Assembly: GCF_022747945.1 (NCBI RefSeq)
Contig: NZ_JALDST010000001.1
Location: 6,076,001-6,140,000, forward strand
DNA from: Micromonospora sp. R77
GTDB taxonomy: Bacteria; Actinomycetota; Actinomycetes; Mycobacteriales; Micromonosporaceae
DNA length: 64,000 nt
Direction of reading: 5' to 3'
Below the pieces are notes generated by a model. It did no database searches. It was given only the letters and a program-made list of their open reading frames with translations, and was not told where the DNA came from. Below are positions 1 to 17,596 of this stretch, piece by piece. The position numbers and the translations under genes were made by a program. The first letter of the stretch is position 1. Each line of letters starts with the position of its first letter.

Positions 1-1321
1 GGTGGTGGGGCAGCAGGACTTTCCGCCAGTGCGACTCGAGCCGGGACAGGTGAAATCGGTAGAAGTTGACGATCAGCATGATGGTGCGCAGTGGGTACCT
101 GTTGAGCGGGAAGTCCAGGCGCAGATAGGCGTAGCCGTTGATCGACCCGGCCATCGGCTCGGGCACCAGCGGACGGGCGAGCCGGTCGGAGCCGGACCAG
201 TTGCGCCGCCACCGGTCCACCAGGCGGGGGTAGAGGGTGGTCTCGAACAGCGGTGAGAGCGGCTCGGGCAGCCACGAGTCGCAGATGCTGATCCGCGCCC
301 AGGTCGCGCCGTCGATCGGGCTGCTCCAGTCGGCCGTGGGCGGCAGGGCCAGGCTGCGGGTGAGCGGCCGGGCCTGCAGGATCCACAGCTGCCCGTCGTG
401 GACGGCCCACTCGATGTCCTGTGGCGCGCCGAAGTGCCGGGTCACGCGCAGACCCAGCCGGGCCAGCTCGGTCACCTGCTCCGTCCTGAGCGAGGCGGTG
501 GAGCGCCGTTCCGGGTCGGTGTCGATCAGGGTGGTCCCGGTCCCGTCGGGGACCACCAGCTGCGACTTGCTCCCGATCTCGGTGCGCTGGACGGTGTCGC
601 CGGTGGGGGACACGACGAACCGGTCGGGGTCGACCTGGCCGCTCACCACGGCCTCGCCCAGTCCCCAGCTCGACTCGATGACGACCGGCCCGGTGGGGTC
701 GCCGGGCGCGGCGGGGTCGGGCGTGACGAACATGACGCCGGCCGCGTCGGCCGGCACCATCGCCTGCACGACGACCGCCATGGCGGCGTCGGCATGGGGT
801 ACGCCGGCCCGCTCGCGGTAGAGGATCGCGGGGATCTCCCACAGCGACGCCCAGCAGGTCCGGACGGCGTCGACGAGCTGGTCGAGCGAGCGTACGCCGA
901 GTTCGGTGTGATATTGACCGGCGAAGCTGGTGTCCGTGGTGTCCTCGGAGGTGCCGGAGGAGCGCACCGCCACGCCGCCGCCGTTCGGGCACACCTGCCG
1001 GTATGCCCGGTCCAGTTCGGTGCGTAGGTCGGCGGGCAGGTCGAGGTTCCGGACGGCCGACCGCAGCGATCCGGCGATCTGCTCCATCGGCTCCCAGGGC
1101 GGCGTCGCCGACCCGGGCTCCGGGGAGGGGGTCGCGGTGAGACGGTCGAGCAGCGGGGCCAGGGTGGGGGTGACGACGGCGTGGTAGGTGGAGATGGGTA
1201 GGCAGAAGCCGGCGGGGACGGGTAGGCCGGCCCCGAGCAGGTCGCCCAGGTTCGCCGCCTTGGCGCCGGCGGTGCCGGCATCGGATGCGCGCAGGTCGTG
1301 GAGCGGGACGAGGTCAGGCAT
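1..1321 (-). CDS. PEP/pyruvate-binding (PPDK-N) phosphotransferase-like protein, partial
   Basis: The C-terminus lies beyond the left edge; 440 codons are visible. The ATG overlaps the end of the upstream Rieske gene by 8 bp, indicating translational coupling. The first ~330 residues form the ATP-grasp domain of PEP synthase and pyruvate phosphate dikinase: GTAGAKAANLGDLLGAGLPV near residue 16, VAVRSSGTSEDTTDTSFAGQ near 120, ADAAGVMFVTPD and SSWGLGEAVVSG in the middle, and the closing block WILQARPLT. A different domain follows (DSWLPEPLSPLFETTLYPRL). That order, ATP-grasp then substrate domain then swivelling His domain, is known for rifampin phosphotransferases as well as PEP synthase. Its place in a terpenoid oxygenase operon favours phosphorylation of a small metabolite, but PEP supply is also possible. 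The catalytic His domain is not in the window. Confidence 0.8.
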   Translation of the reverse strand, partial: MPDLVPLHDLRASDAGTAGAKAANLGDLLGAGLPVPAGFCLPISTYHAVVTPTLAPLLDRLTATPSPEPGSATPPWEPMEQIAGSLRSAVRNLDLPADLRTELDRAYRQVCPNGGGVAVRSSGTSEDTTDTSFAGQYHTELGVRSLDQLVDAVRTCWASLWEIPAILYRERAGVPHADAAMAVVVQAMVPADAAGVMFVTPDPAAPGDPTGPVVIESSWGLGEAVVSGQVDPDRFVVSPTGDTVQRTEIGSKSQLVVPDGTGTTLIDTDPERRSTASLRTEQVTELARLGLRVTRHFGAPQDIEWAVHDGQLWILQARPLTRSLALPPTADWSSPIDGATWARISICDSWLPEPLSPLFETTLYPRLVDRWRRNWSGSDRLARPLVPEPMAGSINGYAYLRLDFPLNRYPLRTIMLIVNFYRFHLSRLESHWRKVLLPHH

Positions 1322-2363
1322 CGTCGGCCACCCGGTCCACCCACTGCTGGTAGTACTTGCGGAAGGCGAGCACTCCGTGGTCGCCGTTGACGTAGATGCC
1401 GTGTCGGTCGCCGCGTTCGATGGTGTTGAACAGCGGGATGTCCTGCTTGGAGGTCAAGGTGATCTCCGGGCGGTGCAGGAGGTAGTTGCGCAGGTCCCGC
1501 CAGCGCGTCCCGGTCGGGGGCAGGGCCACCGCGATGTGCTGGATGGTCCGGTTGGGTCCCAGCGGGGTGGTGGCCAGCAGCATCCGGTACTGCAGGCGCC
1601 CGTCGGCGAAGTAGCTGATCCGCTGGCCGCTGGGCCAGCCGTCGACCCGCAGGACGAACTGCTTGGCGTTGGTGCCCAGGAGACTGGTGATCCGGCCGAG
1701 CCGGCCGCGGTACGACGGCCAGTTCAGTTCCGCGCCGAGCCAGGCCTCGGCGGCGATGGGTGGACCGTGATCCGCGGTGGCCGCGGGGTCGTCGAGCATG
1801 CGCAGGGTCGTCGATCCGTTGACGTCGAGTCCGTGCAGGGCGACGAGGTGGTCGGGGTCGTAGGTGTTCTCCAGGATCCTGCGGACGGTTGCCCGGGTGT
1901 CGTCGGCCATGCGGAAGCCGGTGGGGTAGCTGGTCGCCCCGTCCAGGACGGGAAAGGTGGGCAGCGGGAACATCGGTTCGCGGCTGCCGTACCAGACCCA
2001 GACGTAGCCGTGCCGTTCGGTGGTCGGGTAGCTGCGCAGCCGGTCCCGGCCCGAGACGTCGAGCGCGGGCGGGGCGGCCACGCACCGGCCGGTGTCGTCG
2101 AAGCGCCACCGGTGTGCGGCGCACTGCAGCTCACCGCTGGTGACTTGTCCCTCGGCAAGACTCGCGCCCAGGTGTGGGCAGAATCCCTGGGTCACGACGG
2201 GTTGGCCCGCTCCGTTTCGCCAGGCCACCAGTTTCCGTCCGAACAGGGTCAACGGTTGGGGGCCCTTTTTCAGTTCGCCGGAAGGAAGTGCCACGTACCA
2301 ACTCGCCGGGATGTCGGTACGCTCCGCAGTGATGAGAGTTGCTACGGTCGGCTGCTGGGTCAT
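1314..2363 (-). CDS. Rieske non-heme iron oxygenase A
   Basis: Oxygenase alpha-subunit type protein of 349 residues. The Rieske [2Fe-2S] ligands are CPH (in CPHLGAS) and, 16 residues later, CAAH. The mononuclear-iron motif reads ENTYDPDHLVALHG, giving D-x2-H-x4-H. A later QD in KQDIPLFN is the likely third ligand. The family (KshA/VanA-like) hydroxylates or demethylates small molecules using O2 and electrons from a ferredoxin/reductase, none of which is seen here. I chose ATG 2363 (MTQQPTV) because GGTGGA lies 8 nt upstream; an in-frame ATG at 2417 is possible. It is co-transcribed with the dikinase-like gene and diverges from the phosphatase at 2504. Its role in tailoring a terpenoid is inferred from context. 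Confidence 0.88.
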   Translation of the reverse strand: MTQQPTVATLITAERTDIPASWYVALPSGELKKGPQPLTLFGRKLVAWRNGAGQPVVTQGFCPHLGASLAEGQVTSGELQCAAHRWRFDDTGRCVAAPPALDVSGRDRLRSYPTTERHGYVWVWYGSREPMFPLPTFPVLDGATSYPTGFRMADDTRATVRRILENTYDPDHLVALHGLDVNGSTTLRMLDDPAATADHGPPIAAEAWLGAELNWPSYRGRLGRITSLLGTNAKQFVLRVDGWPSGQRISYFADGRLQYRMLLATTPLGPNRTIQHIAVALPPTGTRWRDLRNYLLHRPEITLTSKQDIPLFNTIERGDRHGIYVNGDHGVLAFRKYYQQWVDRVADDA

Positions 2364-2949: not shown

Positions 2950-4050
2950 TCACGGCGCGGTGTCACCTTCGCCGTCGCGGTTCGCATGCCGCACCCAGTC
3001 GTCGTACCGTTCGCGGAAGTGCGCCAGCGGCGCGTCGTGCTCCGTGGGCCTGCTGTGGCGCTCCTGGCGGAATTCCGCGAAGCCGCGTAGCCCTTCCCGG
3101 AGGTCGCGCCGGCGGAACCTGCGGTAGCCGAGCAGCATCGACGCGTCGTGGGCGGGACTACCCGACCGGCGCACGAAGGACCAGCCCCGCACGATGGAAT
3201 GCCCGTCGCGGACCGGGGTCACGGCGAGCAGTTCCCGGACAGTGTCCTGACCGGCGACGGAGAAGGTGAGTCGCTGGCCGCCCGGCCAGCCGTCCACCAG
3301 CAGTTCGGTAGGGCCGTCGGTGTTGCGGAGCGGGCGCGGCAGCCGTGGCCCGTGGAACTCCAGCCTGGCCCCGGTCCACGCCTGCGCCGGGATCGGCGGG
3401 CCGTTGCGTACCGCCGCCTCGGGGTCGGGCAGCACCGTCGACCCGGCCGGGTCGATCGCCGCCAAGCCGTGGGCGGCCGCGAAGTGGTGGTGGTCGTATG
3501 CCTGCTCCAGGACCCGGCGCGGTGACGCCGAGGTGAGGTGCGCGAACCGGTGGCGTTGGTAGTCGCTCCGGTTCATCACCTCGGCCGGCAGCTGCGGCAG
3601 GGCGAACATTGGCTCGGGGGAGCCGTACCAGACCCAGAGGAAGCCGTAGCGTTCCCGCACCGGGTACGCCCGCTGCCGGGCCATGTGGCTGGGCAGATTG
3701 TCGAGCCTGGGAATGTGCACGCACGCGCCAGTGGCGTCGAAGCGCCAGTGGTGGAACACGCACCGCAACTGCCCTTCGACGACCTTGCCGAGTGCGAGGC
3801 TTGCGCCCAGGTGGGGGCAGTGGCGCGGCAGCACCGACGCGGTGCCGGCGCCGTCGCGCCAGGCCACCAGTTGGCGGCCGAACAGGGTCAGGGGCCGGGG
3901 CTTGGCGCCCACCATCCGCGACGGCAGGGCGACGTACCAGGAGGCGGCCAACCGGGTCATGGGCTGCGGCGCGACGGACGACAGGGGTACGGCGTCCGTC
4001 GCGCCCGGTTGGTCGGCGGCCCGCACCGGCCCGCGGCCCGGCCGGGTCAC
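2950..4050 (-). CDS. Rieske non-heme iron oxygenase B
   Basis: Predicted 366 residues. The GTG start at 4050 overlaps the TGA of the upstream Rieske gene (GTGA), and this start gives the same length as the neighbouring paralogs. The Rieske ligands are CPH (CPHLGAS) and CVFH, 16 residues apart. The mononuclear-iron motif is EQAYDHHHFAAAHG (D-x2-H-x4-H). The C-terminal segment differs from the paralogs: where they show QD-x2-(V/L)(Y/F)N, this one reads RQERHSRPTEHD, so the third iron ligand may be Glu or a different Asp. Probably a tailoring oxygenase of the terpenoid pathway (inference). Confidence 0.88.
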   Translation of the reverse strand: MTRPGRGPVRAADQPGATDAVPLSSVAPQPMTRLAASWYVALPSRMVGAKPRPLTLFGRQLVAWRDGAGTASVLPRHCPHLGASLALGKVVEGQLRCVFHHWRFDATGACVHIPRLDNLPSHMARQRAYPVRERYGFLWVWYGSPEPMFALPQLPAEVMNRSDYQRHRFAHLTSASPRRVLEQAYDHHHFAAAHGLAAIDPAGSTVLPDPEAAVRNGPPIPAQAWTGARLEFHGPRLPRPLRNTDGPTELLVDGWPGGQRLTFSVAGQDTVRELLAVTPVRDGHSIVRGWSFVRRSGSPAHDASMLLGYRRFRRRDLREGLRGFAEFRQERHSRPTEHDAPLAHFRERYDDWVRHANRDGEGDTAP

Positions 4051-5144
4051 GACCGGCCCCCGACGAAGGCCGGGTCCACCCGGTCCACCCAGGACTGGTA
4101 GTACTTGCGGAACCGCAGCAACCCGTTGTCGTGCCAGGCGCGCAGCGTGCCGGCGGCGGGCTCGGTGTTGTTGTAGACGGGCAGGTCCTGGGTGCTGCCG
4201 CCGCGGTACTGGCCGAAGAGTGTGAACATGTTGAACGCGGTGCGGGGGCCGAGGCCGCTGCCGCGAGGGGTCACCATCCAGCCCACCTGGGTGGTCCGCC
4301 GTTCCTCGATCGGGACGATGGCCATCAGCACCTTGTAGAACACCTTCCCGTCGACGTACCCGGTGAAGCGTTGCCCGCCCGGCCAGCCGTCCACCAGGAC
4401 CTGGAAGCTGTCGCCCGCCGCGAACGTCGCCGACTTCGCCACCAGCCACCGGAACGGGTCACGGATCGGATGTCCGGGGGTGGCCACTCCTTCGAACCAC
4501 GAGCCCAGCCAGGCGTCGGTCGGGATGGGTGATCCGTTGTCGGAGGCCTCCGACTGGTCGCGCAGCATCCGGAACTCGGTGCGGTCGAGGGATAGCCCGT
4601 GCAGCGCCTCGAAGTGGAAGTAGTCGAAGGCGTTCTCGAGCAGTTGCCGGGCGGTGCCGACGGTCCGATCGGCGTATTGGAAGCCGATGTAGCGATGCCG
4701 GTCGACGTCGCGGGGTGGGAAGTCCGGTAGCGGGAACAGCGGTGTCGGCGTGCCGTACCACACCCAGACGAAGCCGTAGCGCTCCTGCACGGCGTAGGTC
4801 GCCAGCTTGGCCGTCGAGGGGATCCGGTCGGAGCCGGGGATCTGCACGCACGTTCCCGAGCCGTCGAACCGCCAGCCGTGGAACGGGCAGCGCAGGGCGC
4901 CGTCGGTGAGCGAGCCGAGGGCCAGGCTCGCGCCCTGGTGGGGACAGAACCTGCCGGCGAGGACCGGCTTGCCGGACCCGTCGCGCCAGGCGACCAGGTC
5001 CCGGCCGAACAGCCGCACCGGCACCGGGCGGCGCCCCAACTGCCGCGACGTCAGTCCGACGTACCAGCTGGCGGCCAGACCCGTCGGGACGGCGTCAGGC
5101 CTCGCCGCCTGGGCGGAGAGTCTTCGAGGCAACACACCGGTCAT
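4047..5144 (-). CDS. Rieske non-heme iron oxygenase C
   Basis: 365 residues; the most canonical member of the set. The Rieske ligands are CPH (CPHQGAS) and CPFH in CPFHGWRFDGSGTCVQIPGS. The iron motif is ENAFDYFHFEALHG with D-x2-H-x4-H, and the likely third ligand is Asp in TQDLPVYNN. It sits 15 bp downstream of the prenyl diphosphate synthase and overlaps the next Rieske gene by 4 bp, so the three form one operon. Rieske oxygenases work as trimers in which the [2Fe-2S] of one subunit feeds the iron of its neighbour through the conserved Asp; all these residues are present here. Confidence 0.9.
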   Translation of the reverse strand: MTGVLPRRLSAQAARPDAVPTGLAASWYVGLTSRQLGRRPVPVRLFGRDLVAWRDGSGKPVLAGRFCPHQGASLALGSLTDGALRCPFHGWRFDGSGTCVQIPGSDRIPSTAKLATYAVQERYGFVWVWYGTPTPLFPLPDFPPRDVDRHRYIGFQYADRTVGTARQLLENAFDYFHFEALHGLSLDRTEFRMLRDQSEASDNGSPIPTDAWLGSWFEGVATPGHPIRDPFRWLVAKSATFAAGDSFQVLVDGWPGGQRFTGYVDGKVFYKVLMAIVPIEERRTTQVGWMVTPRGSGLGPRTAFNMFTLFGQYRGGSTQDLPVYNNTEPAAGTLRAWHDNGLLRFRKYYQSWVDRVDPAFVGGRS

Positions 5145-5159
5145 CCGCGTACCTCCTGG

Positions 5160-6050
5160 TCAGTGCGACCGGCTACAGACGTAGTCGGCGATGGCGAACA
5201 GCGGAGTGGCGCCCTTGCCGAGGATCTCGACCTCCTGCTTGGCCGATTCCACGAGCGTGGTGGCCCGCCTGCGTGACTCCTCGAGACCGAGCAGCCGGGG
5301 GAAGGTCGCCTTGTTCGCCCGGTCGTCCTTGTGCGGGGTCTTGCCCAGTTCGTCCAGCGTGGAGGTGACGTCGAGGATGTCGTCGACGATCTGGAACGCC
5401 AGGCCGATCTTCTCGCCGTAGAGGCAGAGCCGCGCGATGATCTCCTCGCTCGCGTCGGCCAGCACGGCGCCGCTGACCAGGGCCGCCACCAGCAGGGCGC
5501 CGGTCTTGCGGGAATCCATCGACTCGAGCGTCGGCAGGTCCACGTCCGCGCGGTTGGTGTTCTGGATGTCGATGACCTGCCCGCCGATGGCGCCGTGCAC
5601 GCCGATGGCATGCAGCAAGGTGCTGACCACCCGCAACAATTGCTGCGGTGGGGCCTCGGTGCGGGTGAGCATGTACTCCAACGAGTACGCCAGGAGCGCG
5701 TCGCCGGTGAGCACCGCCACCCCTTCACCGAATACCTTGTGGTTGGTGGGACGGCCTCGCCGGAAATCGTCGTTGTCCATTGCCGGCAGGTCGTCGTGAA
5801 TCAGTGTGGCGGTGTGGAGCATCTCCAGAGCGACGGCCGTGGGAATAGCGACTTCCGGCCGGCCGTCGTGCGCGGTGCACGCGGCCAGGCACAGGATGGG
5901 ACGTAGCCGTTTTCCGCCGGACATCAGAGAATAGTGGATCGAGGCTCGTAGCGGTTCCGGAATGTCTCCGTCAAGGGCCCGCTCAAGTTCCCGATCGATG
6001 AGGCCCTGCTGTTCGCGCAGGTAGGACGACAACTCGAATTCTTGAAGCAT
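5160..6050 (-). CDS. Polyprenyl diphosphate synthase (GGPP/FPP-synthase type)
   Basis: 296-residue trans-prenyltransferase that condenses IPP with allylic diphosphates. The first Asp-rich motif is DDLPAMD (DDx4D, followed by NDDFRRGRPTNHK), the second is DDILD, and GGKRLRP is the IPP-binding segment near residue 46. The residue five positions before the first motif is Ala (LHTATLIHDD). A small residue there is associated with products longer than C15, so GGPP (C20) is more likely than FPP; this is inference. It heads the minus-strand operon with two Rieske oxygenases and is divergent from the ispG-dxs-ispH operon, which would supply its C5 substrates. Confidence 0.9.
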   Translation of the reverse strand: MLQEFELSSYLREQQGLIDRELERALDGDIPEPLRASIHYSLMSGGKRLRPILCLAACTAHDGRPEVAIPTAVALEMLHTATLIHDDLPAMDNDDFRRGRPTNHKVFGEGVAVLTGDALLAYSLEYMLTRTEAPPQQLLRVVSTLLHAIGVHGAIGGQVIDIQNTNRADVDLPTLESMDSRKTGALLVAALVSGAVLADASEEIIARLCLYGEKIGLAFQIVDDILDVTSTLDELGKTPHKDDRANKATFPRLLGLEESRRRATTLVESAKQEVEILGKGATPLFAIADYVCSRSH

Positions 6051-6296
6051 GAAACCTCGCTTCGACCTGACTGACCTAGGCGAAGGCTAACGCGAAGTCG
6101 GCATCGAAGCCTGTGCATTTGCATGGTGTTCCGGGCAGGGGGGTCGGTTAAGGATTTGGTGATGATGCCGTCGACCATCGGTCCCCATTGGACGGCGGGA
6201 GTCCGCGGCTCCGTGACCGGGCTCGTGGTCGCCGATGCCGGCCCGGTCGCGTGGCGCGGACACAACACGGGCAGCGACCACGGTGAGGGAGCAGCC
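6051..6296. promoter_or_regulatory. Divergent promoter region between prenyl synthase and ispG operons
   Basis: A 246-bp intergenic region between two divergent starts that must carry promoters for both halves of the terpenoid pathway. It includes a relatively AT-rich stretch around 6105-6165. I cannot assign -35/-10 boxes or an operator with confidence. A strong GTGAGGGA ribosome site precedes ispG. Confidence 0.5.
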
Positions 6297-7409
6297 ATGA
6301 CCGATTTGCACATCGCCCGACGTTCCACTCGTCAGCTGAAGGTGGGAAAGGTGGGCGTCGGCAGCGACAGCCCGATCTCCGTGCAGTCCATGACGACCAC
6401 TCCGACCACCGACATCGACGCCACCCTCCAACAGATCGCGGCGCTGACCGCAGCCGGGTGCGACATCGTCCGGGTCGCCGTCCCGTCCCAGGACGACGCC
6501 GACGCCCTGCCCGTGATCGCCAGGAAGTCGCAGATCCCGGTGGTCGCCGACATCCACTTCCAACCCCGCTACGTCTTCGCCGCGATCGAAGCGGGCTGCG
6601 CTGCGGTACGCGTCAACCCCGGCAACATCAAGAAGTTCGACGACCAAGTGGGGGAGATCGCCCGGGCCGCCGCGGCACGCGATGTCCCGATCCGGATCGG
6701 GGTGAACGCCGGCTCGCTCGATCCCCGGCTGCTGGCCAAGCACGGTGGTGTCACCCCGGAGGCGCTGGTCGAATCCGCCCTGTGGGAGGCCGGCCTCTTC
6801 GCCGAACACGACTTCCACGACATCAAGATCTCGGTGAAGCACCACGATCCGCAGGTGATGATCCGCGCGTACGAGCTGCTCGCCGCGGTCTGCGACTATC
6901 CCCTGCACCTCGGCGTCACCGAGGCCGGTCCGCCACCGCAGGGCATCGTCAAGTCCGCCACTGCGTTCGGTGCCCTGCTGCGCCAGGGAATCGGCGACAC
7001 CCTGCGGGTGTCGCTCTCGGCGGATCCGGTCGAGGAGGTGAGGGCCGGCATCGGTATCCTTGAGTCTCTTGGCCTGCGGAAGCGTACCGGCCTGGACATC
7101 GTGTCGTGCCCGTCGTGCGGGCGCGCTCAGGTCGACGTCTACGACCTGGTGGCGGAGGTACAGGCCGCGCTGGACGGGCTGGAGGTGCCACTGCGGGTCG
7201 CGGTGATGGGCTGCGTCGTCAACGGGCCCGGCGAGGCGCGGGAGGCCGATCTCGGGGTCGCCTCCGGCAACGGCAAGGGACAGATCTTCGTGCGGGGCAA
7301 GGTCATCCGGACCGTCCCCGAGTCGCAGATCGCCGAGGTGCTCATCGAGGAGGCGCTGCGGCTGGCCGGCGAATCCGTTCCCGCCGAGGCCACCGCGAGC
7401 AGCCGATGA
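6297..7409 (+). CDS. ispG: 4-hydroxy-3-methylbut-2-enyl diphosphate synthase
   Basis: GcpE/IspG of the MEP pathway: converts MEcPP to HMBPP with a [4Fe-4S] cluster. 370 residues, the usual size for the bacterial two-domain form. The N-terminal TIM barrel contains [17 protein letters not shown] and ADIHFQPRY. The C-terminal cluster ligands are the CPSC pair and the Cys of [10 protein letters not shown], which also carries the catalytic Glu. ATG 6297 is preceded by GTGAGGGA. Its stop overlaps the dxs start (ATGA). The next two genes are also MEP enzymes, so this is probably a cluster-dedicated second copy rather than the housekeeping gene, which in actinobacteria usually lies with dxr; that is inference. 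Confidence 0.95.
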
Positions 7410-9181
7410 TCGGGCAGCCGGCGGCCCCGACCGTCGACCCCGTTGACGACACCTACTCGGGCCTGCGTGGGCTCACTCCCGAGGCGGTGCGCGGGTGGGA
7501 CCCCGGGCAGTGCCTGCACCGGGCCGCCGAGATTCGGCGCTTTCTGGTTGACCGGGTCACTCGCGCCGGCGGCCACCTCGGCCCGAATCTCGGCATGGTG
7601 GAGCTCACCATCGCCCTGCACCGGGTCTTCGACTCCCCGCGCGACGTGCTGCTGTTCGACACCGGCCACCAGTCCTACGTCCATAAGATCCTCACCGGTC
7701 GCGCGACGGAGTTCGACACGTTGCGGCAGGCCGGCGGCATGTCCGGCTATCCCTGCCCGGCGGAGTCCCGGCACGACCTGGTGGAGAATTCCCACGCCTC
7801 CACCGCGCTGTCCTACGCCGAGGGCATGGCCAAGGCGTTCGCGCTGCGCGGTGAGCAGCGGCGGGTGGTGGCCCTCGTCGGTGACGGTGCGCTCACCGGA
7901 GGTATGAGCTGGGAGGCGCTGAACAATCTGGGCGCCGGCTCGCTGCCGGTCGTCGTGGTGCTCAACGACAACGAGCGTTCCTACGCACCCACGGTGGGTG
8001 CCCTGTCCCGTCACCTGGCCGAGTTGCGCGCCGGACGCGGCGGCCCGACCCTGTTCGACCGGCTGGGCCTGGCCTACGTGGGGCCAGTCGACGGACACGA
8101 CGTCGGTGCCACCGAGCGCGCGCTGCGCCGCGCCGCCGAGCTGGGCCGGCCGGTCGTCGTGCACTGCGTCACCCGTAAGGGCGCCGGCCACCCGGCGGCC
8201 GAGGACGACCACGCCGACCGGATGCATGCGGTCGGTCCGGCCGGTGGCGGCGGGGGCCCGTCCTGGACGTCCGTGCTCGGCGAGGAACTCGACCTGATCG
8301 GTGCCGAGCGCTCCGACGTCGTCTGCGTCACCGCGGCCATGGCGCTGCCCACCGGGCTGGGGCCGCTGATGCGACGGACGCCGGAACGGGTGTTCGACGT
8401 CGGGATCGCCGAGCAGCACGCCGTCACTTCGGCGGCCGGGCTGGCGCTGGGCGGCCTGCACCCGGTGGTGGCGATCTACTCCACCTTCCTCACTCGGGCT
8501 CTCGACCAGATCCTGATGGACGTGGCGTTGCACCGGCTGCCGGTGACGTTCGTGCTCGACCGCGCCGGCATCACCGGCCCGGACGGGCCGAGCCACCATG
8601 GCATGTGGGACGCCAGCCTGCTGGCGCTGGTGCCGGGTCTGCGGCTCGCCGCGCCGCGCGACAGTTCCCGGCTGCGGCACCTGCTGCGCGAGGCGGTGGA
8701 CCACGAGGAGGGGCCGACCGCGATTCGCTTCCCGAGGGCCACCAGCGGCGCCGACGTGCCCGCGGTGCACCGTACCGCCGACTACGACGTGCTGCACGCG
8801 GCTCCAGACGCGCCGGTCATGATCGTGTCGGTCGGACCGATGGCCGAGGCGTGCCTCGCCGCGGCCCGGGAACTGGACCGGCAAGGCATTCGAGCGACGG
8901 TGGTCGATCCCCGCTGGATCGCTCCCCTCGCCCCCGAACTGGTCAAGCTCGCCGGCACCCACCAGCTCGTCGTGACTGTCGAGGACGCCACGGCCACCGG
9001 ATCGATGGGCAGCCGCCTGGCGCAGGCCCTGGCGACGGCCGGCTCGTCGGCGCGTGCGGTGCCCCTGGCCCTGCCGGCGGCGTTCGTGGCGCACGGCGGG
9101 CGGGAGGAGATCCTGCGGGCCCACGGCCTCGACGCGGCCGGCATCGCCAGTGCCGTGCGGAAACGCCTGGAACAGTTGTGA
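7406..9181 (+). CDS. dxs: 1-deoxy-D-xylulose-5-phosphate synthase
   Basis: Thiamine-diphosphate enzyme that condenses pyruvate and glyceraldehyde 3-phosphate, the first MEP step and a known flux bottleneck. 591 residues, somewhat shorter than the typical 620-640. Visible features are [15 protein letters not shown], the ThDP/Mg motif [34 protein letters not shown], and the catalytic Glu region [11 protein letters not shown] in the transketolase-pyrimidine domain, then a C-terminal transketolase domain. The ATG overlaps the ispG stop by 4 bp; upstream in-frame codons belong to sequence inside ispG and are not used. IspH follows after 22 bp. Confidence 0.95.
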
Positions 9182-9203
9182 CCGTCGAGGAGAGGGCATC
9201 GGC

Positions 9204-10163
9204 GTGAGACGGAAAGTGCTGCTCGCGGCGCCACGCGGCTTCTGCGCGGGTGTGGACCGGGCCGTGAAGGCCGTGCACACGGCCCTGGCCGAGTACGGCC
9301 CGCCGGTCTACGTACGGCACGAGATCGTGCACAACACCCACGTCATCGCCGAGCTCGAGGCGGCCGGCGCGGTCTTCACCGACGACTTGGACACGGTGCC
9401 GCCGGGTTCGGTCCTGGTGTTCTCCGCCCACGGCGTGTCCCCGCAGGTGCGCCAGCACGCGCGTAGCCGCTCTTTGCGGGTTGTCGACGCGACCTGCCCG
9501 CTGGTGTCCAAGGTGCACGCGGAGGCCCGTCGGTACGCCCGCGACGATCATCAGATCGTCCTGATCGGTCACCACGACCACATCGAGGTCGCCGGCACCC
9601 GTGGTCACGCGCCCCGGCACACGCACGTCGTGGACCCTGATGACCCGGACGCGGTGGCGCGGCTGACCCTGGACGCGGACCGCCCGGTGGTGTGGCTGTC
9701 GCAGACCACCCTCGCCGTCGACGACGTCGACCGGGCCGTGAGCCGGCTGCGTGAACGCTTTCCGCACCTGACGCAGCCACCCACCGATGACATCTGCTAT
9801 GCCTCCACCAACCGGCAGGCCGCGATCGCCGCCATCGCCGCCCGGTGCGACCTCGTGCTGGTCGTCGGGTCGAGCACCTCGTCGAACTCGAAACGGCTGG
9901 TCACCGTGGCTCGGCGGGCCGGCGCCCGCGCCGCCTACCTCGTCGACGACGCCGACCAGGTGGATCCGCGGTGGCTGGTGGGAGTCGAGACCGTCGGAGT
10001 GACCAGTGGAGCCTCCGCACCGGAACGCGTCGTTCGTCAGGTGCTCGGCCGCTTGGCCGCGCGGGGCTGGGACGACGTCGAACAGGTGGTCGGTACGGCG
10101 GAGGACGTCGTCTTCGTCCCACCACCGCTGCACCGGGCCCGCCCGACTCCGGCGGAGGCCTAG
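9204..10163 (+). CDS. ispH: 4-hydroxy-3-methylbut-2-enyl diphosphate reductase
   Basis: LytB/IspH, last MEP step, which makes IPP and DMAPP from HMBPP with a [4Fe-4S] cluster. 319 residues. The three cluster cysteines lie in PRGFCAGVDRA, VDATCPLVSKVH and TDDICYAST; HNTHV and HDH motifs and SSTSSNSKRL (substrate diphosphate binding) are present. The GTG start at 9204 follows GAGGAGAGGG. Third gene of the ispG-dxs-ispH operon. dxr, ispD, ispE and ispF are absent, so the cluster reinforces only selected steps of the pathway. Confidence 0.95.
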   Translation: MRRKVLLAAPRGFCAGVDRAVKAVHTALAEYGPPVYVRHEIVHNTHVIAELEAAGAVFTDDLDTVPPGSVLVFSAHGVSPQVRQHARSRSLRVVDATCPLVSKVHAEARRYARDDHQIVLIGHHDHIEVAGTRGHAPRHTHVVDPDDPDAVARLTLDADRPVVWLSQTTLAVDDVDRAVSRLRERFPHLTQPPTDDICYASTNRQAAIAAIAARCDLVLVVGSSTSSNSKRLVTVARRAGARAAYLVDDADQVDPRWLVGVETVGVTSGASAPERVVRQVLGRLAARGWDDVEQVVGTAEDVVFVPPPLHRARPTPAEA

Positions 10164-12390: not shown

Positions 12391-15264
12391 TCACTGCCCG
12401 AGCGCATCCCGCAGCTGCGACCGCCCGGTGACGCCGAGCTTGCGGTAGACGCGGGTGAGGTGGATCTCGACGGTTCGCAAGGTCACGAAATGCGCCTCGG
12501 CGATCTCCCGGTTGGTGGCACCCGCGGCGGCCATCGAGGCGATCCGGCGCTCGCCCGGAGTGAGCAGTTGCTCGTCGGACTCCGGCACGGAACGCGGCCG
12601 TCCACCGGCGGCCAGCAACTCCGTCTGCGCGGTACGCACCAGCGCCGGCGCCCCGCACCGGACGGCCAGGGCGATCGCCTCACGCAGTGAGCCACGCGCC
12701 TCCGCGCGGCGGCCCACCTCACGCAGCCTGCGTCCGAGCGCCAAGCGGGCCTCGACGAGACCGAGCCGGCACTGCGCCGGAGTGAGCACGGTGACGGCCT
12801 GCTGCAACGCCGGCAGACCAGCTTCGCCCTCGGTCACCGTACCGAGCACCCGTAACGCCAGGCCGACGGATCCCGCGCCGCCCCACCGGCGAGCCAGTGC
12901 GACGTCCTCGGCCGCCAACCGTCGTGCCTCGACTTCCGCGCCAGTGGCGGCCATCGCGAGGGCGGCGTAGCTGCGCCACGGGCAGGCCGACGGATTGGTG
13001 TGCCGCCAGGCGCGCAGCCGCCGCTCGCACTCGCGCAGGTCCTCCAGCGCGGCCTCGATGCCCTGCTGCGCCAGGTGCAACCGGGCCCGCGCGATGAGCA
13101 GCGGATTGCTCGGCCACGTCGCCGGCAGTTCCCCGGCCAGCGCGTGGCGGTGCAACAGGTCGTTGGCCTCGCCGGTCTTGTCCTGATCCAGCAGCACTTC
13201 GAGCCATGTGGTGAGTGGTCGTGACAGCATTCGTCCCCACTGGGCCGGCTCGGTGAGCTCGAACACCTCACGCATGTCCGCCGCTGCCTCGGCCAGCGCG
13301 CCACGCCGGTGGTACACCGTGGCCCGTACGTGCAGGGCGGTGGCGTAGAACATGACCCAGCCGCGACTTCGCGCCACCCCGATCGCCTGCTCGCAGTACC
13401 GTTCGGCCAGGGTGAACTCCTCCGCCTGTATCAGCGCCCCGACGCTGAACAGGCGGATCAGGTCGCCGTCGTCCTGACGGGTCAGGCCGCCGGCCAGTGC
13501 CTGTCGGGCCAGCCGAACGGCCTCCTCCCGGCTGTCGCAGGACCACGTGGCGGCGACTGCGGCCAGCGCCGCCGTGGTCGAGTGGGTTTTCGGGTGGGTG
13601 GCGCCTTTGCGGGCGAACCGGTCCAGTCGGTCACGTGCCCAGGGCAGGGTCCGTTCGTCGACCATCGCGATCGCGACCATGTCGACCTCCAGGAGCGCGG
13701 CGAACTCCTCGTCCTTTTCCGCCACCTGCCCGACGACCTCCTCGAGTACTTTCAAGGCGTCGCCCGGCTGTCGGCCGATCATCAGGGCGTGGATCAGCAG
13801 GCGCGCCGCCCGGCCGCGATGACGCGGATCCTGCGCGGTCCGCAGCACCGTGCTCAGGCGGTCGATGGCCGACGTCGGATTGAGCATCAGTTCGAGACCA
13901 CCCAGGTCGAGCAGGAGCTGGGTCCGGTCGACGGAGGTCATCGCGACCGGCAGCAGCCGGCACAGGTAACGCGTGGCCAGCTCCGGAGCGCCGCGGACGA
14001 CGGCCACCCCAGACGCCTGCCGCAGCACCTCGACACCCCACGGCGGTAACTGGTCGGCGTGTAGAAGATGGGCCGCGACTTGGTCGACGGGGGCACCCTC
14101 GGCGTGCAGCAGCTCGGCGGTGCGTTCATGGCAGCGGCTGCGTTCGCCCGCCGACGCGCTCTGACGGACTGCGCTGCGCAGGATCGGCTGGGTGAAGGTC
14201 AGTGGGTTGCCGTCCTGCAAGATTGCGGCCTGTACCAGGCGGTCCACCACGGCTCTCGCCAGGCTTGGGTGGAGGTCGGTGACGGTGGCCACCAGCGGCA
14301 GGTCCGCTCGGGCGCCGAGGACCACCACCGCCAGCGCCACCTGCAGGGCGTGCGGTCCGGCAGCGGTCAATCGGCGCCGCACGGACCGGGCGACACTGGC
14401 CGGGCTGACGGTGCGGATCTCTTCCGCTGCGGCCTGCGTCGGCGGGACCCCTCGCGCCCGCAGATCCTGCAGGAGAGCCGTCAGTAACTGCGGGTTGCCG
14501 CACGTGGCGCGGTGGCAGGCCGCGGCGAATTCGGCATGTGTGTCGTCGCCGTACGTCGAGTGCACCAGGCGCCGGCTGCCGTCCGCGCTCAACGGTGTCA
14601 GCAGCACCGACGACGTGTCGCAGCCTGCTGCGGCGACGATTGCCTGCACGTCGGTGGCGCCCGTCTCGTTGTCGCGCACGGTCAGCACGACACCGATGGG
14701 CAGGCCGGTGATCCGCCGGACGAGGAACTCGAGCCACTGCCGTGACGGTTCGTCCAGCCAGTGCGCGTCGTCGATGACCAGCAGCAGCGCGGTCGTGGCG
14801 GCTAGGTTCACCGCGAGCCAGTACAGGCCGTGCATGAGGGCGAAGAGGCTGTCCGGTCGTTGCAGGTCGTGTGCCCCAGGGTTTGCCGTGAAGACGGGCA
14901 GGGCCAGGGCCGCCGCCCCGGTCGGTGCGAGGGGGGCGCCGATGTCACCGCTGATCAGGCGTTCAAACATTTGGCGTACGGCGCCGAAGGCGAACTCGTT
15001 CTCGCCCTCGGCGCAGTGCGCTGTGCAGACCAGCATGCCGTGGTGTGCAGCAGTGGCGGCAATCGCGTCGACCAGGGCGGTGCGTCCGGTGCCCGGCTCC
15101 CCGTGTAGTACGGCAACTCCGGGCTGACCGGCTTGCATGCCGGCGAGCATCCGGTGCAGAGAGCGGCTTGCTGCCTCGCGCTCGAGCAGCTGCTGGAAGT
15201 GCCCGAGCCGCTCACCGTGGTGTCCCGCGTTTGTCTGGGGTCCGAGCCGTGCCACCGAGCACAT
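12391..15264 (-). CDS. LAL-family LuxR transcriptional regulator (AAA ATPase + HTH)
   Basis: 957 residues. N-terminal ATPase: Walker A GEPGTGRTALVD near residue 55 (Arg in place of the usual Lys in GxGK) and Walker B LLLVIDDAHWLDE near 165. The middle is a long helical/TPR-like region rich in Ala and Leu. The C-terminal HTH (last ~60 residues) reads LTPGERRIASMAAAGATNRE then IAEAHFVTLRTVEIHLTRVYRKL. This is the usual architecture of large ATP-binding LuxR activators of antibiotic and terpenoid clusters. An alternative GTG start at 15255 has GAAGGA at better spacing. It sits between the Rieske pair (282 bp upstream, same strand) and the small LuxR gene; likely the cluster activator. Confidence 0.9.
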   Translation of the reverse strand: MCSVARLGPQTNAGHHGERLGHFQQLLEREAASRSLHRMLAGMQAGQPGVAVLHGEPGTGRTALVDAIAATAAHHGMLVCTAHCAEGENEFAFGAVRQMFERLISGDIGAPLAPTGAAALALPVFTANPGAHDLQRPDSLFALMHGLYWLAVNLAATTALLLVIDDAHWLDEPSRQWLEFLVRRITGLPIGVVLTVRDNETGATDVQAIVAAAGCDTSSVLLTPLSADGSRRLVHSTYGDDTHAEFAAACHRATCGNPQLLTALLQDLRARGVPPTQAAAEEIRTVSPASVARSVRRRLTAAGPHALQVALAVVVLGARADLPLVATVTDLHPSLARAVVDRLVQAAILQDGNPLTFTQPILRSAVRQSASAGERSRCHERTAELLHAEGAPVDQVAAHLLHADQLPPWGVEVLRQASGVAVVRGAPELATRYLCRLLPVAMTSVDRTQLLLDLGGLELMLNPTSAIDRLSTVLRTAQDPRHRGRAARLLIHALMIGRQPGDALKVLEEVVGQVAEKDEEFAALLEVDMVAIAMVDERTLPWARDRLDRFARKGATHPKTHSTTAALAAVAATWSCDSREEAVRLARQALAGGLTRQDDGDLIRLFSVGALIQAEEFTLAERYCEQAIGVARSRGWVMFYATALHVRATVYHRRGALAEAAADMREVFELTEPAQWGRMLSRPLTTWLEVLLDQDKTGEANDLLHRHALAGELPATWPSNPLLIARARLHLAQQGIEAALEDLRECERRLRAWRHTNPSACPWRSYAALAMAATGAEVEARRLAAEDVALARRWGGAGSVGLALRVLGTVTEGEAGLPALQQAVTVLTPAQCRLGLVEARLALGRRLREVGRRAEARGSLREAIALAVRCGAPALVRTAQTELLAAGGRPRSVPESDEQLLTPGERRIASMAAAGATNREIAEAHFVTLRTVEIHLTRVYRKLGVTGRSQLRDALGQ

Positions 15265-15546: not shown

Positions 15547-16584
15547 TCAGGTGTCGTCGAGCACCCGGTCCACCCAGGACTGGTAGTACTGCCGGAATAG
15601 CCGGACGCCGTCGGCGTAAGTGCCCGGTGGGTCGCCGGGCTGCATGGTGCGCAGAAGGGACGGGTCCCGCCTGGAGGCCGGGGTCATCCTGATGAGGTTG
15701 GTCAGGAAGCATGGCAGATCCGTCCAGATCCGTCCGGTCTTCTCGACGGTCATCGCGATGTGCCTGACTGTGTGCTCAGGCGCGACGGGCGTGGTGGCCA
15801 GGAGCAGCCGGTACTGCGCGACGCCGTCGGTGAAGACCGAGACGCGCTGGCCCGCCGGCCAGCCGTCGACCCTCAGAGTGATCTCGTGGGTGCCGCCACC
15901 CGTCAGTGCGGAGGTCAGGCGTGGCGCTGCGGTGTGACGCGACCATCGCAGTTCGGCGCCGAAGCAGGCGTCCGCTGGAATCGGCGGACCATGGTCGCTG
16001 GTGAGATCCGCTGGGGTGAGCATGCGCGACCCGAGCGGCCGTTCGACGCGTGCCCCGGGCAGTCCGGCCAGACAGCCGGGTCCGTAGGTGTTTTCCAGGA
16101 CGCGGCGGACCGAGGTCGTGGTGGTGTCGGCGCGGCGGAGGCGACGGTAGGGCGGGGCACTGTCTAGCGCTGGTAGTTCCGGGAGGGCGAACATTGGCTC
16201 AGGGCTGCCGTACCAGACCCAGATGTAGCCGTGCCGCTCGATTGTCGGGTAGGGCTGTCGGTTCGCCGCGGCGGGAATGCGGTCGGAGCCGGTGATCTGG
16301 ACGCATGCACCCGAGTCGTCGAAGCGCCAACCGTGGAACGGGCATTCCAGCAGACCGTCGACGATCCTGCCGTGGGCGAGGCTGGCGCCCATGTGCGGGC
16401 ACGCGCGTGGCAGTAGTACCGGGTGGCCGGCAGCGGCACGCCAGGCCACTAGTTTCCGTCCGAACAGGGTCAGCGGTACCGGGCGTCGCGTCAGGTCCCG
16501 CGACGGCAGGGCCACGTACCAGCTCGCTGCAAGGTCGAGTGCGACCCGTACGTCCGCGTCGGCGCGTGTGGGATGGCGTCTCAT
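15547..16584 (-). CDS. Rieske protein D: Rieske cluster intact, mononuclear iron motif lost
   Basis: 345 residues, clearly homologous over its full length to Rieske genes A-C. The [2Fe-2S] ligands are intact (CPHMGAS, then CPFHGW 16 residues on, with DDSGACVQITGSDR). The iron motif is destroyed: where paralogs have ENTYDPDHLVALHG this protein has ENTYGPGCLAGLPG, so Asp, His and His became Gly, Cys and Pro. The late Asp in RRDPSLLRTM remains. It therefore should carry electrons but not activate O2 by itself. ATG 16584 follows the stop of the upstream paralog by 4 bp, so translation is coupled. The open frame is undamaged and conserved elsewhere, which argues against a simple pseudogene. Proposed partner: the protein encoded at 16589-17596. 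Confidence 0.88.
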   Translation of the reverse strand: MRRHPTRADADVRVALDLAASWYVALPSRDLTRRPVPLTLFGRKLVAWRAAAGHPVLLPRACPHMGASLAHGRIVDGLLECPFHGWRFDDSGACVQITGSDRIPAAANRQPYPTIERHGYIWVWYGSPEPMFALPELPALDSAPPYRRLRRADTTTTSVRRVLENTYGPGCLAGLPGARVERPLGSRMLTPADLTSDHGPPIPADACFGAELRWSRHTAAPRLTSALTGGGTHEITLRVDGWPAGQRVSVFTDGVAQYRLLLATTPVAPEHTVRHIAMTVEKTGRIWTDLPCFLTNLIRMTPASRRDPSLLRTMQPGDPPGTYADGVRLFRQYYQSWVDRVLDDT

Positions 16585-16588
16585 CGCT

Positions 16589-17596
16589 TCATCCCGCTTC
16601 CGTCTCGGCCCGGGCGGCGTGCTCGGCCCAGCCGGCATGGAACTTGCGGAACCTGAGCACGCCGTGGTCGTACTTCACCGGGACAACGGCCCCGGACTCG
16701 CTGGCGTGCCGGTAGATGACGAGGTCCTCGCGGGTGCCCTGCCGGTGCTGGGCGCGGTATCCCAGGTAGGTCAGGACGTCCCGCAACGGGCGTCCGGTGC
16801 GGGCCACCAACGTCCAGCCCTGCATGATGGTCTGGTCGGCGGCCACCGGCGTGACGCCGAGGAGTTCCTTGGCCACCACTTTGCCGTCCAGCAGAAAGGT
16901 CAGCCGCTGCCCGGTCGGCCAGCTGTCCACCAGCACATCGGATCGTTCGGTGCGGAAGCCGAAGGCCCGGAATGGCTGAGGTATGTGTAGGCCGCGGGCG
17001 GTCAACTGGGCGCCGAACCAGGCCTCGCGAGGGATCGGTGGCCCGTTCTCGGCCGCGGCCTGCTGATCCGACAGCAGCGTCATGTCCATCGGTACCTGGG
17101 ACTTCACGCCGTGCAGGAACATGAAGTGGTAGAAGTCGAACGCGTTTTCCAGGATGCGGCGAGGCGGGGCCGGGGTGGTGTGGGAGAAGCGATAGGTCAG
17201 GTAGCCACTGCGGTCGCCGTCGAGCGCCGGTACCCGGGGTAGCTCGTACGCCGGTTCGCTGCCGCCGTACCAGGCCCAGACGTAGCCATAGCGCTCCACG
17301 ACCGGATAGCTGCGCAACCGCCGACGGGACAGTCCGTCCACGACGTCGTGCTCAGTGGGGCTGGCACCCCGTGGTACGCGGTGCCGCTGCATGATCAGGG
17401 CGCTGCCGTGGCTGTCACGCCAGGCGACCAGGCGCCGCCCGAACAGGTCCAGCGCCCGCGGCTTCGAGGCCAGCGCATCCGAGCGCAGAGCGATGTACCA
17501 GCCGGCCGCGAGACGGAGTCCAGTCTCCGTCGCGGTGCCCTCGTGCCGCGCTGCCGTCACGGCCGACCGCCGCTGTCCACGGCCGACGCCGGCCAC
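16589..17596 (-). CDS. Rieske-oxygenase paralog E: iron site intact, Rieske cluster lost
   Basis: 335 residues, homologous to the other four. The catalytic half is canonical: ENAFDFYHFMFLHG keeps D-x2-H-x4-H, and RQGTREDLVIYRH supplies the likely third ligand. The N-terminal Rieske half has lost all ligands. The CPHxGAS segment reads HRVPRGAS, and about 26 residues holding the second C-x2-H and the CVxIPGSDR loop are deleted, with the frame joining DVVDGL to SRRRLRSYPVVERYG. The reading frame is otherwise clean. It needs an external [2Fe-2S] donor, and the directly downstream, coupled gene encodes exactly that. GTG 17596 is used as start; a GTG at 17560 is also possible. Confidence 0.88.
   Translation of the reverse strand: MAGVGRGQRRSAVTAARHEGTATETGLRLAAGWYIALRSDALASKPRALDLFGRRLVAWRDSHGSALIMQRHRVPRGASPTEHDVVDGLSRRRLRSYPVVERYGYVWAWYGGSEPAYELPRVPALDGDRSGYLTYRFSHTTPAPPRRILENAFDFYHFMFLHGVKSQVPMDMTLLSDQQAAAENGPPIPREAWFGAQLTARGLHIPQPFRAFGFRTERSDVLVDSWPTGQRLTFLLDGKVVAKELLGVTPVAADQTIMQGWTLVARTGRPLRDVLTYLGYRAQHRQGTREDLVIYRHASESGAVVPVKYDHGVLRFRKFHAGWAEHAARAETEAG

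Follow-up and report, generated by a model that had tools for sequence, protein, structure and literature searches.

Complementary metal-site losses in two adjacent Rieske oxygenase paralogs of a gromomycin-like gene cluster point to a putative oxygenase in two halves

Introduction

How can a Rieske oxygenase function when neither of two neighboring genes for it encodes both of its metal sites? The question is raised by a stretch of 64,000 nucleotides from the 7.1 Mb genome of Micromonospora sp. R77 (contig NZ_JALDST010000001.1, positions 6,076,001 to 6,140,000), here called the window and numbered from its first nucleotide, in which two adjacent genes encode Rieske non-heme iron oxygenase paralogs that we term RE (16589..17596) and RD (15547..16584). 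RE is a groB-type paralog without the ligands of the [2Fe-2S] cluster and with an intact iron site, the putative catalytic subunit, and RD, of the groA type, has both Rieske motifs intact but a dead iron site and is the putative electron-donor subunit. The transfer of electrons between subunits is an accepted rule for Rieske oxygenases, and every subunit normally carries both metals, so that donor and acceptor are inseparable without mutation. The Asp of the D-x2-H motif is the bridging residue and not an iron ligand; the iron is bound by two His residues and a later Asp or Glu. Based on the sequences of the two genes and of their relatives, we propose, with a probability of about 0.7, that one Rieske oxygenase of a gromomycin-like cluster is divided between RE and RD, half in each. 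The available parts of the gromomycin papers describe three Rieske genes, groA, groB, and groC (PMC12105684, PMC13010261).

Results

The metal sites of RE and RD

Both genes are read on the minus strand, as are all other features given below, and plus-strand frame 1 at their coordinates contains stops. RE, the upstream gene of the pair, has a GTG start and encodes 335 amino acids (aa), and RD, of 345 aa, starts with an ATG only 4 bp after it. In RE, the first Rieske motif, expected as CPHxGAS, is represented by the remnant HRVPRGAS (17360..17383), and the second, the C-x2-H stretch, is missing (17324..17335), about 27 columns being deleted. The bridging Asp and the two iron His lie within ENAFDFYHFMFLHG (17108..17149), and the Asp of REDLVIY (16724..16726; these four RE coordinates were counted from the frame) is the third iron ligand by alignment with KshA, where it falls on the motif QDVEIW, the Asp of which we take to be an iron ligand of KshA. 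In RD, both Rieske motifs, CPHMGAS (16381..16401) and CPFHGW (16327..16344), are intact, and ENTYGPGCLAGLPG (16054..16095) stands in place of D-x2-H-x4-H, with C and P replacing the two iron His and G replacing the bridging Asp. An Asp is still aligned at the later carboxylate position of RD, in a stretch of low model confidence. An earlier note made from the letters of this DNA had read the same 4 bp gap, the loss of all four cluster ligands with the deletion and the retained D-x2-H-x4-H with its bridging Asp in RE, and the intact Rieske motifs and replaced D, H, and H in RD, and all of these readings hold, with the later carboxylate of RE now added to them.

In Pfam, RE matches KshA_C and is without a Rieske domain, and RD has a Rieske domain only, with no recognized catalytic domain. 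Since three further paralogs of the cluster, RA, RB, and RC, are also Rieske-only in Pfam, the absent catalytic match of RD by itself means little. Single-chain AlphaFold2 models have a mean predicted local distance difference test score (pLDDT) of 88.0 and a predicted template modeling score (pTM) of 0.86 for RE, and 81.7 and 0.85 for RD. Low pLDDT in RE is largely confined to the N terminus, the remnant loop (71-90), and residues 301-310 (68), all other blocks from residue 101 on being at 84 or above, and the base strands of the Rieske fold are retained. In RD, residues 21-130 are at 89 or above, and the stretch of the former third iron ligand (307-310 and 312-320) is below 50. SxtT, GxtA, KshA, and dicamba monooxygenase are at the top of the Foldseek results for both models (50 rows shown for each), with TM-scores by query length of 0.48-0.66 for RE and 0.57-0.70 for RD. 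Both models have the overall fold of a complete Rieske non-heme iron oxygenase alpha subunit, and RD is a single oxygenase-like fold rather than a reductase-fused Rieske domain of the NdmC/NdmD kind.

Reciprocal loss in orthologous pairs

Scoring in the protein searches was limited to the candidates with most words in common, and one listing gave the best 120 of 397, so the counts that follow are no census. The RE search returned four further proteins of 310-340 aa with 76-83% identity, none of them with a Rieske domain, and the RD search returned partners for all four on contigs equal in size, from Micromonospora NPDC051141 (208459), Actinoplanes HUAS TT8 (11596698), Actinoplanes NPDC051851 (118603), and a JGI contig (121187). 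These pairs are known as protein records, and it is by the equal contig size that each was judged to lie on one contig. Together with the window there are five pairs, and the lesions are complementary in all five, which answers both the search for homologous pairs with the same reciprocal losses and the test by co-conservation that the earlier note had put forward. Specifically, the four [2Fe-2S] ligands are gone from all five RE proteins, and the bridging Asp and the iron triad, including the three residues within ENAFDFYHFMFLHG, are kept in every one. Conversely, the five RD proteins all keep the four cluster ligands and both motifs, CPHMGAS and CPFHGW, and each has lost at least one iron ligand, by substitutions that differ from one to the next: the second His is P in P0086; the His pair is R and P in P0080, where the third ligand is E; the first His is Y and the third ligand G in P0079; and the second His is S and the third ligand R in P0087. 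The cluster-binding loops of the RE orthologs are lost to differing extent between flanking strands that are conserved (68% and 80% mean identity), and mean ortholog identity is 86% for the RE catalytic domain and 81% for the RD Rieske domain. It should be noted that the RE orthologs are automatically named hypothetical protein and RD Rieske domain protein, a warning that such names hide paired enzymes.

RB-type proteins are listed for all five sources and RC-type proteins for three; the RA, RB, and RC proteins of JGI are on another contig (140315), possibly but not surely of the same genome. In whole-genome searches with RE, a cutoff of E up to 1e-3 gave matches in 47 of the 160 genomes of the genus, mostly short and weak; only G089 and the genome of the window itself had long ones. 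At 1e-30 there were matches in 3 of the 354 genomes of the family and 2 of the 394 of the class, counts that each include the window's genome. Whole genomes yielded no second split pair, and G089, G232, and G441 each carry three complete genes.

Domain-wise constraint

As a yardstick we used the columns conserved in 95% or more of the intact relatives (36 intact groA-type rows, RC left aside, and 33 intact groB-type rows). RD keeps 183 of 185 such near-invariant cells in the Rieske domain (99%) and 187 of 295 in the catalytic domain (63%), and RE keeps 80 of 145 (55%) and 244 of 255 (96%), respectively; six random fives of intact rows, taken as a control, retain 0.96-1.00 of the cells of either domain. 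The ratio of catalytic to Rieske distance, calculated from chosen groups and not from all rows, is 0.39 (0.26-0.58) for RE and 2.52 (1.86-3.56) for RD, compared with 0.70-1.33 in six intact groups of at least three rows; the two-row groups D3V (2.40) and window-lineage groC (0.46) are too small to lean on.

These figures bear on the possibility that a second groAB set is decaying, with RE and RD as its nonfunctional remains. A pseudogene pair would have lost constraint over its whole frames, and decay would strike both domains of both genes, but the constraint seen here is domain-specific and opposite in RE and RD. The eroded catalytic domain of RD (63% of near-invariant cells) and the variation of the lesions between genomes are what decay would give; weighing against it are ten protein records in five genomes or contigs, the identity of the RE catalytic (86%) and RD Rieske (81%) domains among orthologs, and the retention in five of five of the RE iron-site residues and the RD cluster ligands, and we regard decay as highly improbable. 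The data support a genuine pair, inherited together and under reciprocal constraint, as expected of a donor and an acceptor.

RD is not the only paralog of the cluster with such a profile. RB (2950..4050), the groB-type member of the main RA-RB-RC set, has intact Rieske motifs and a Gly in place of the third iron ligand (codon 3091..3093 within REGLRGF, counted from the frame), and this Gly is found in RB and all four of its orthologs. A His is also lost in three of the five (R in P0137, R in P0138, Q and Y in P0133). RB keeps 138 of 145 near-invariant cells in the Rieske domain and 207 of 255 in the catalytic domain, and its distance ratio is 2.82 (1.88-4.63). By these patterns RE is conserved in a catalytic role, and RD and RB in that of carrying the cluster. 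The three fully equipped paralogs that the earlier note had counted nearby are accordingly two: all ligands are present in RA (4047..5144, groC-type) and in RC (1314..2363, groA-type, main set). The catalytic domain of RC is somewhat more conserved than its Rieske domain (ratio 0.50 vs 1.11 in its sister group), which weakly suggests a lean to catalysis. In three RC orthologs the second Rieske motif reads CAAHRW, CPAHRW, and CASHRW, vs the usual CPFHxW.

Phylogeny of the paralogs

A tree of 163 rows, built from the catalytic region with the five trait columns removed, contains a groA-type clade (50 rows) with RD and RC, a groB-type clade (43) with RB and RE, and a groC-type clade (46) with RA. 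Dropped before this tree and the completeness counts were the window duplicates P0006, P0002, P0105, and P0132, the fragments or frameshifted records P0139, P0042, P0051, P0135, P0081, P0121, P0192, P0183, and P0178, and the distant P0082-P0084 and P0140-P0152. P0139 had been a candidate for the Rieske-less RC-type protein that one ring model predicted and was rejected as out of frame at both ends, and P0042, P0051, and P0135, which are without the Rieske part because their sequences begin within the protein, were treated as fragments. Among the distant records, P0084 from a Polaromonas metagenome-assembled genome (353 aa) has a VanA_C catalytic end with D-x2-H-x4-H kept and no Pfam Rieske match, and is possibly another Rieske-less oxygenase of the NdmC kind. 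Complete rows make up 39 of 50 in the groA-type clade, 33 of 43 in the groB-type, 46 of 46 in the groC-type, and 24 of 24 outside the three, and in none of the 21 that are incomplete can lesions be read in both sites; the N-terminal part is absent from P0109 and P0111, which leaves their first Rieske motif unreadable.

In a more careful tree of 97 rows (8 of the 46 groC-type rows serving as outgroup, and P0130, P0114, P0118, and P0104 left out), the RE clade (support 100/100) joins groB of Dactylosporangium and kin (99/93), and the RD clade (100/100) joins groA of Dactylosporangium and kin (92/97, an unstarred node), with an identical branching order among the five sources in the two subtrees. 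RC groups with groA of contig 191608 and of Micromonospora NPDC020750 (100/99), the Micromonospora-type groA group. The RE/RD pair and RC are thus of separate gro ancestry within one cluster. On this placement the duplication that the earlier note had inferred was no simple local one, and an origin of RE/RD by tandem duplication from RB/RC is not supported by the careful tree. RB lies beside a 33-row groB group that includes RE in the quick tree and with P0019 and P0022 (88/65, branch 1.06) in the careful one, and with the two trees disagreeing its descent is unsure.

Because the five RE proteins form one clade, the loss of the groB cluster is best read as one event. The groA-type iron site was lost in at least three changes on the tree, which we assign to the RD group, to that of P0093, and to P0112. 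The metagenome groA-type proteins P0093, P0094, and P0109-P0112, outside the window lineage, have Val or Ile in place of the third iron ligand, and some are also without a His or the bridging Asp; their Rieske ligands are kept where readable. A groB-type group on a long branch (0.79; P0041, P0179, P0181, P0182, and P0188) has complete ligands, and P0041, P0181, and P0182 share contig size with groC-type proteins, with no groA-type partner among the matches listed; sets of two proteins, groB- and groC-type, may thus exist.

No groC-type row has lost a ligand (0 of 46), as would be expected if the GroA, GroB, and GroC types formed one ring of three different subunits, which RE and RD would enter with RA. 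The iron of RE may then be fed by the RA cluster, the cluster of RD may feed RA, and the RE cluster and the RD iron would be the two halves of one lost junction. For nine contig sizes there is a single row of each of the groA, groB, and groC types (80827, 4455, 44018, 191608, 8657633, 8744, 6910, 80559, and 17759); the three genes adjoin in Actinoplanes xinjiangensis and Streptomyces MspMP-M5, and also in G089 with one small gene before groA; all three are complete in A. xinjiangensis, MspMP-M5, G089, and G441; and inactivation of any one of them gives the same linear precursor, according to the available part of the report (PMC12105684). However, a ring of this kind, with transfer from groB to groA, does not predict the RC Rieske domain, which is relaxed if anything (0.50 vs 1.11 in the sister group), and the available part of a review describes C3-symmetric assemblies only (PMC12445004). 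We consider a ring of three different subunits, although it is the chief competitor of the RE/RD pair, unlikely.

Gene cluster context

The main set is adjoined at RA by a groD-like polyprenyl synthase gene (5160..6050), and an AAA/LuxR-family regulator (12391..15264) lies between the two Rieske sets, downstream of RD. A PAP2 gene is on the RA-RB-RC side of the cluster, and the other side carries genes for a phosphoenolpyruvate-utilising enzyme, a Coq4-like protein, a GroH-like protein, a Pyr4-like transmembrane terpene cyclase, and a P450, as well as two membrane proteins related to the 'lysylphosphatidylglycerol-synthase-like' gene of A. xinjiangensis. At L010:14200-15174 and L010:15696-16691, related neighboring membrane proteins both match one A. 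xinjiangensis gene. By BLAST against the A. xinjiangensis locus, on which the groD, groF, groH, groA, and groC labels were assigned from the gene order in a published table, identity is 62% for groD, 60% for groF, and 58% for groH, and against their counterparts RA has 58%, RC 56%, RE 56%, RD 53%, and RB 48%. Within the cluster, at 6123-10163, there are GcpE (ispG), dxs-like, and ispH-like genes, the last named from sequence reading only, which suggests a dedicated isoprenoid precursor supply; the dxs of the window is 55% identical to the A. xinjiangensis gene, that locus likewise carrying a dxs-like gene. By its gene content the window holds a gromomycin-like terpenoid cluster, the product of which may be a gromomycin, and the substrate of RE and RD would be a polyprenyl-guanidine-type intermediate.

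Discussion

A hypothetical mechanism for RE and RD

We propose that RD is the electron-donor subunit, in which the [2Fe-2S] site is kept and the dead catalytic domain would serve as a scaffold only, and that RE is the catalytic subunit, in which the bridging Asp and the iron triad are kept and the cluster-binding loops are gone. Because RE has lost these loops, its iron would have to be reduced in trans, most simply by RD across the subunit interface of a mixed oligomer. According to the review cited above, in its available part, the cluster of a Rieske oxygenase is about 12 Å from the iron of the neighboring subunit and 45 Å from that of its own (PMC12445004), so that RE would have relied on the cluster of a neighbor even before the loss of its own, and the cluster of RD would be useful only to a neighbor. 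The same text describes Rieske oxygenases as C3 assemblies (PMC12445004), and strictly alternating subunits cannot close a three-membered ring. Of the hetero-oligomer of alternating subunits that the earlier note had envisaged, strict alternation is hence given up, and what stands is a reciprocally constrained, co-inherited pair, from which we infer a hetero-oligomer and a path for electrons from RD to RE. A mixed RD/RE trimer of either composition would contain one RD-to-RE junction, or GroC would complete the ring.

The electrons for RE could also come from another Rieske or ferredoxin protein, either RA, RB, or RC or a soluble ferredoxin, with RD as a structural partner. There is a precedent in NdmC, which is described in the available part of the report as receiving electrons from the extra cluster of NdmD (PMC4408171), and RA, RB, and RC are encoded in the same cluster with intact Rieske motifs. 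Nevertheless, the Rieske domain of RD is nearly unchanged (183 of 185 near-invariant cells), which is needless for a structural role, and RD and RE have an identical branching order; we hold a donor other than RD to be quite improbable.

In the gromomycin cluster of Streptomyces, inactivation of groA, groB, and groC, as we interpret it one at a time, led to the same linear hexaprenylguanidine, as far as the available text goes (PMC12105684). A shared precursor is what a joint complex would give, and the pairing of RE and RD offers an explanation for it. Moreover, the donor-like RB and the complete, catalysis-leaning RC hint at a second, opposite split in the window cluster, in which case the two ancestral active sites would be divided between the groAB pairs, one to each. 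We tentatively extend this to the idea, which we think doubtful but worth stating, that groA and groB, perhaps with groC, were ancestrally one mixed-subunit ring in which the active sites differed, and that in the window lineage two groAB pairs of different descent met and were each stripped to one active site. The groA-type site would then survive in RB/RC and the groB-type site in RD/RE, and the remaining subunit of each pair would be an electron donor only. If this is true, the loss of the groA-type iron site, at least three times and never with a readable loss of cluster ligands, would be a recurrent simplification of mixed Rieske rings.

Several observations weigh against these proposals. 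The five RE proteins being one clade, their cluster loss counts once and not five times. P0012 (5769), the only groB partner matched to the P0093 group, by an equal-sized contig, is complete with its Rieske site kept, which means that groA can lose its iron site without groB losing its cluster. RB of the window and RB of NPDC051141 still have both iron His. RC keeps its Rieske ligands although a strict pair model makes them dispensable, it retains near-invariant cells in both domains (Rieske 103 of 111, catalytic 171 of 177), and its distance ratio of 0.50 (0.32-0.78) overlaps that of intact groA-type rows (0.70; 0.52-0.96). Two complete groC rows of the window lineage have a ratio like that of RC (0.46; 0.18-1.14), and because of these control rows we slightly lowered our estimate for the ancestral ring. 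The shared phenotype of groA, groB, and groC is equally compatible with sequential steps.

The essence of the proposed RE/RD oxygenase is that evolution has separated donor and acceptor in a family with intact relatives, which offers a direct test of in-trans electron transfer, and the complete relatives let the order of the losses be worked out.

Comparison with known systems

The earlier note knew of no description of this arrangement. Among the matches listed in the open literature on split or inactive-subunit Rieske oxygenases there is none for a split between bacterial Rieske paralogs, and, as far as that literature goes, the bacterial paralog pair, its co-conservation in five sources, the iron-site loss of RB, and the complete relatives are new; the principle itself has precedents in the chlorophyllide a oxygenase (CAO) of Micromonas and in NdmC.

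The closest relatives are the gromomycin clusters of Streptomyces sp. Je 1-332 and A. xinjiangensis, which have the same groA-, groB-, and groC-type clades, with groD, groF, groH, PAP2, and others shared between the window and A. xinjiangensis. Each of the two clusters with a detailed description has a single copy of groA, groB, and groC, whereas the window has two groAB pairs, and three of its four groAB proteins are without part of a metal site.

In Micromonas CAO, Kunugi et al. reportedly found in 2013 that one chain has the cluster motif and the other the iron motif. It is described as one Rieske oxygenase over two cooperating chains (PMC9615114). The CAO of Micromonas pusilla resembles RE and RD in having complementary metal sites on two co-inherited chains, a resemblance in principle. 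It differs in that it belongs to a green alga and acts on chlorophyll, whereas the window pair is bacterial, belongs to a terpenoid cluster, and has intact relatives that show the steps. In the NdmC/NdmD/NdmE N7-demethylase, NdmC is the catalytic protein, is without a Rieske cluster, and is reduced in trans, as described in the available part of the report (PMC4408171). NdmC is like RE in being a Rieske-less catalytic protein that needs in-trans reduction, but there the extra cluster is on the reductase, whereas in the window it is on an oxygenase paralog, RD.

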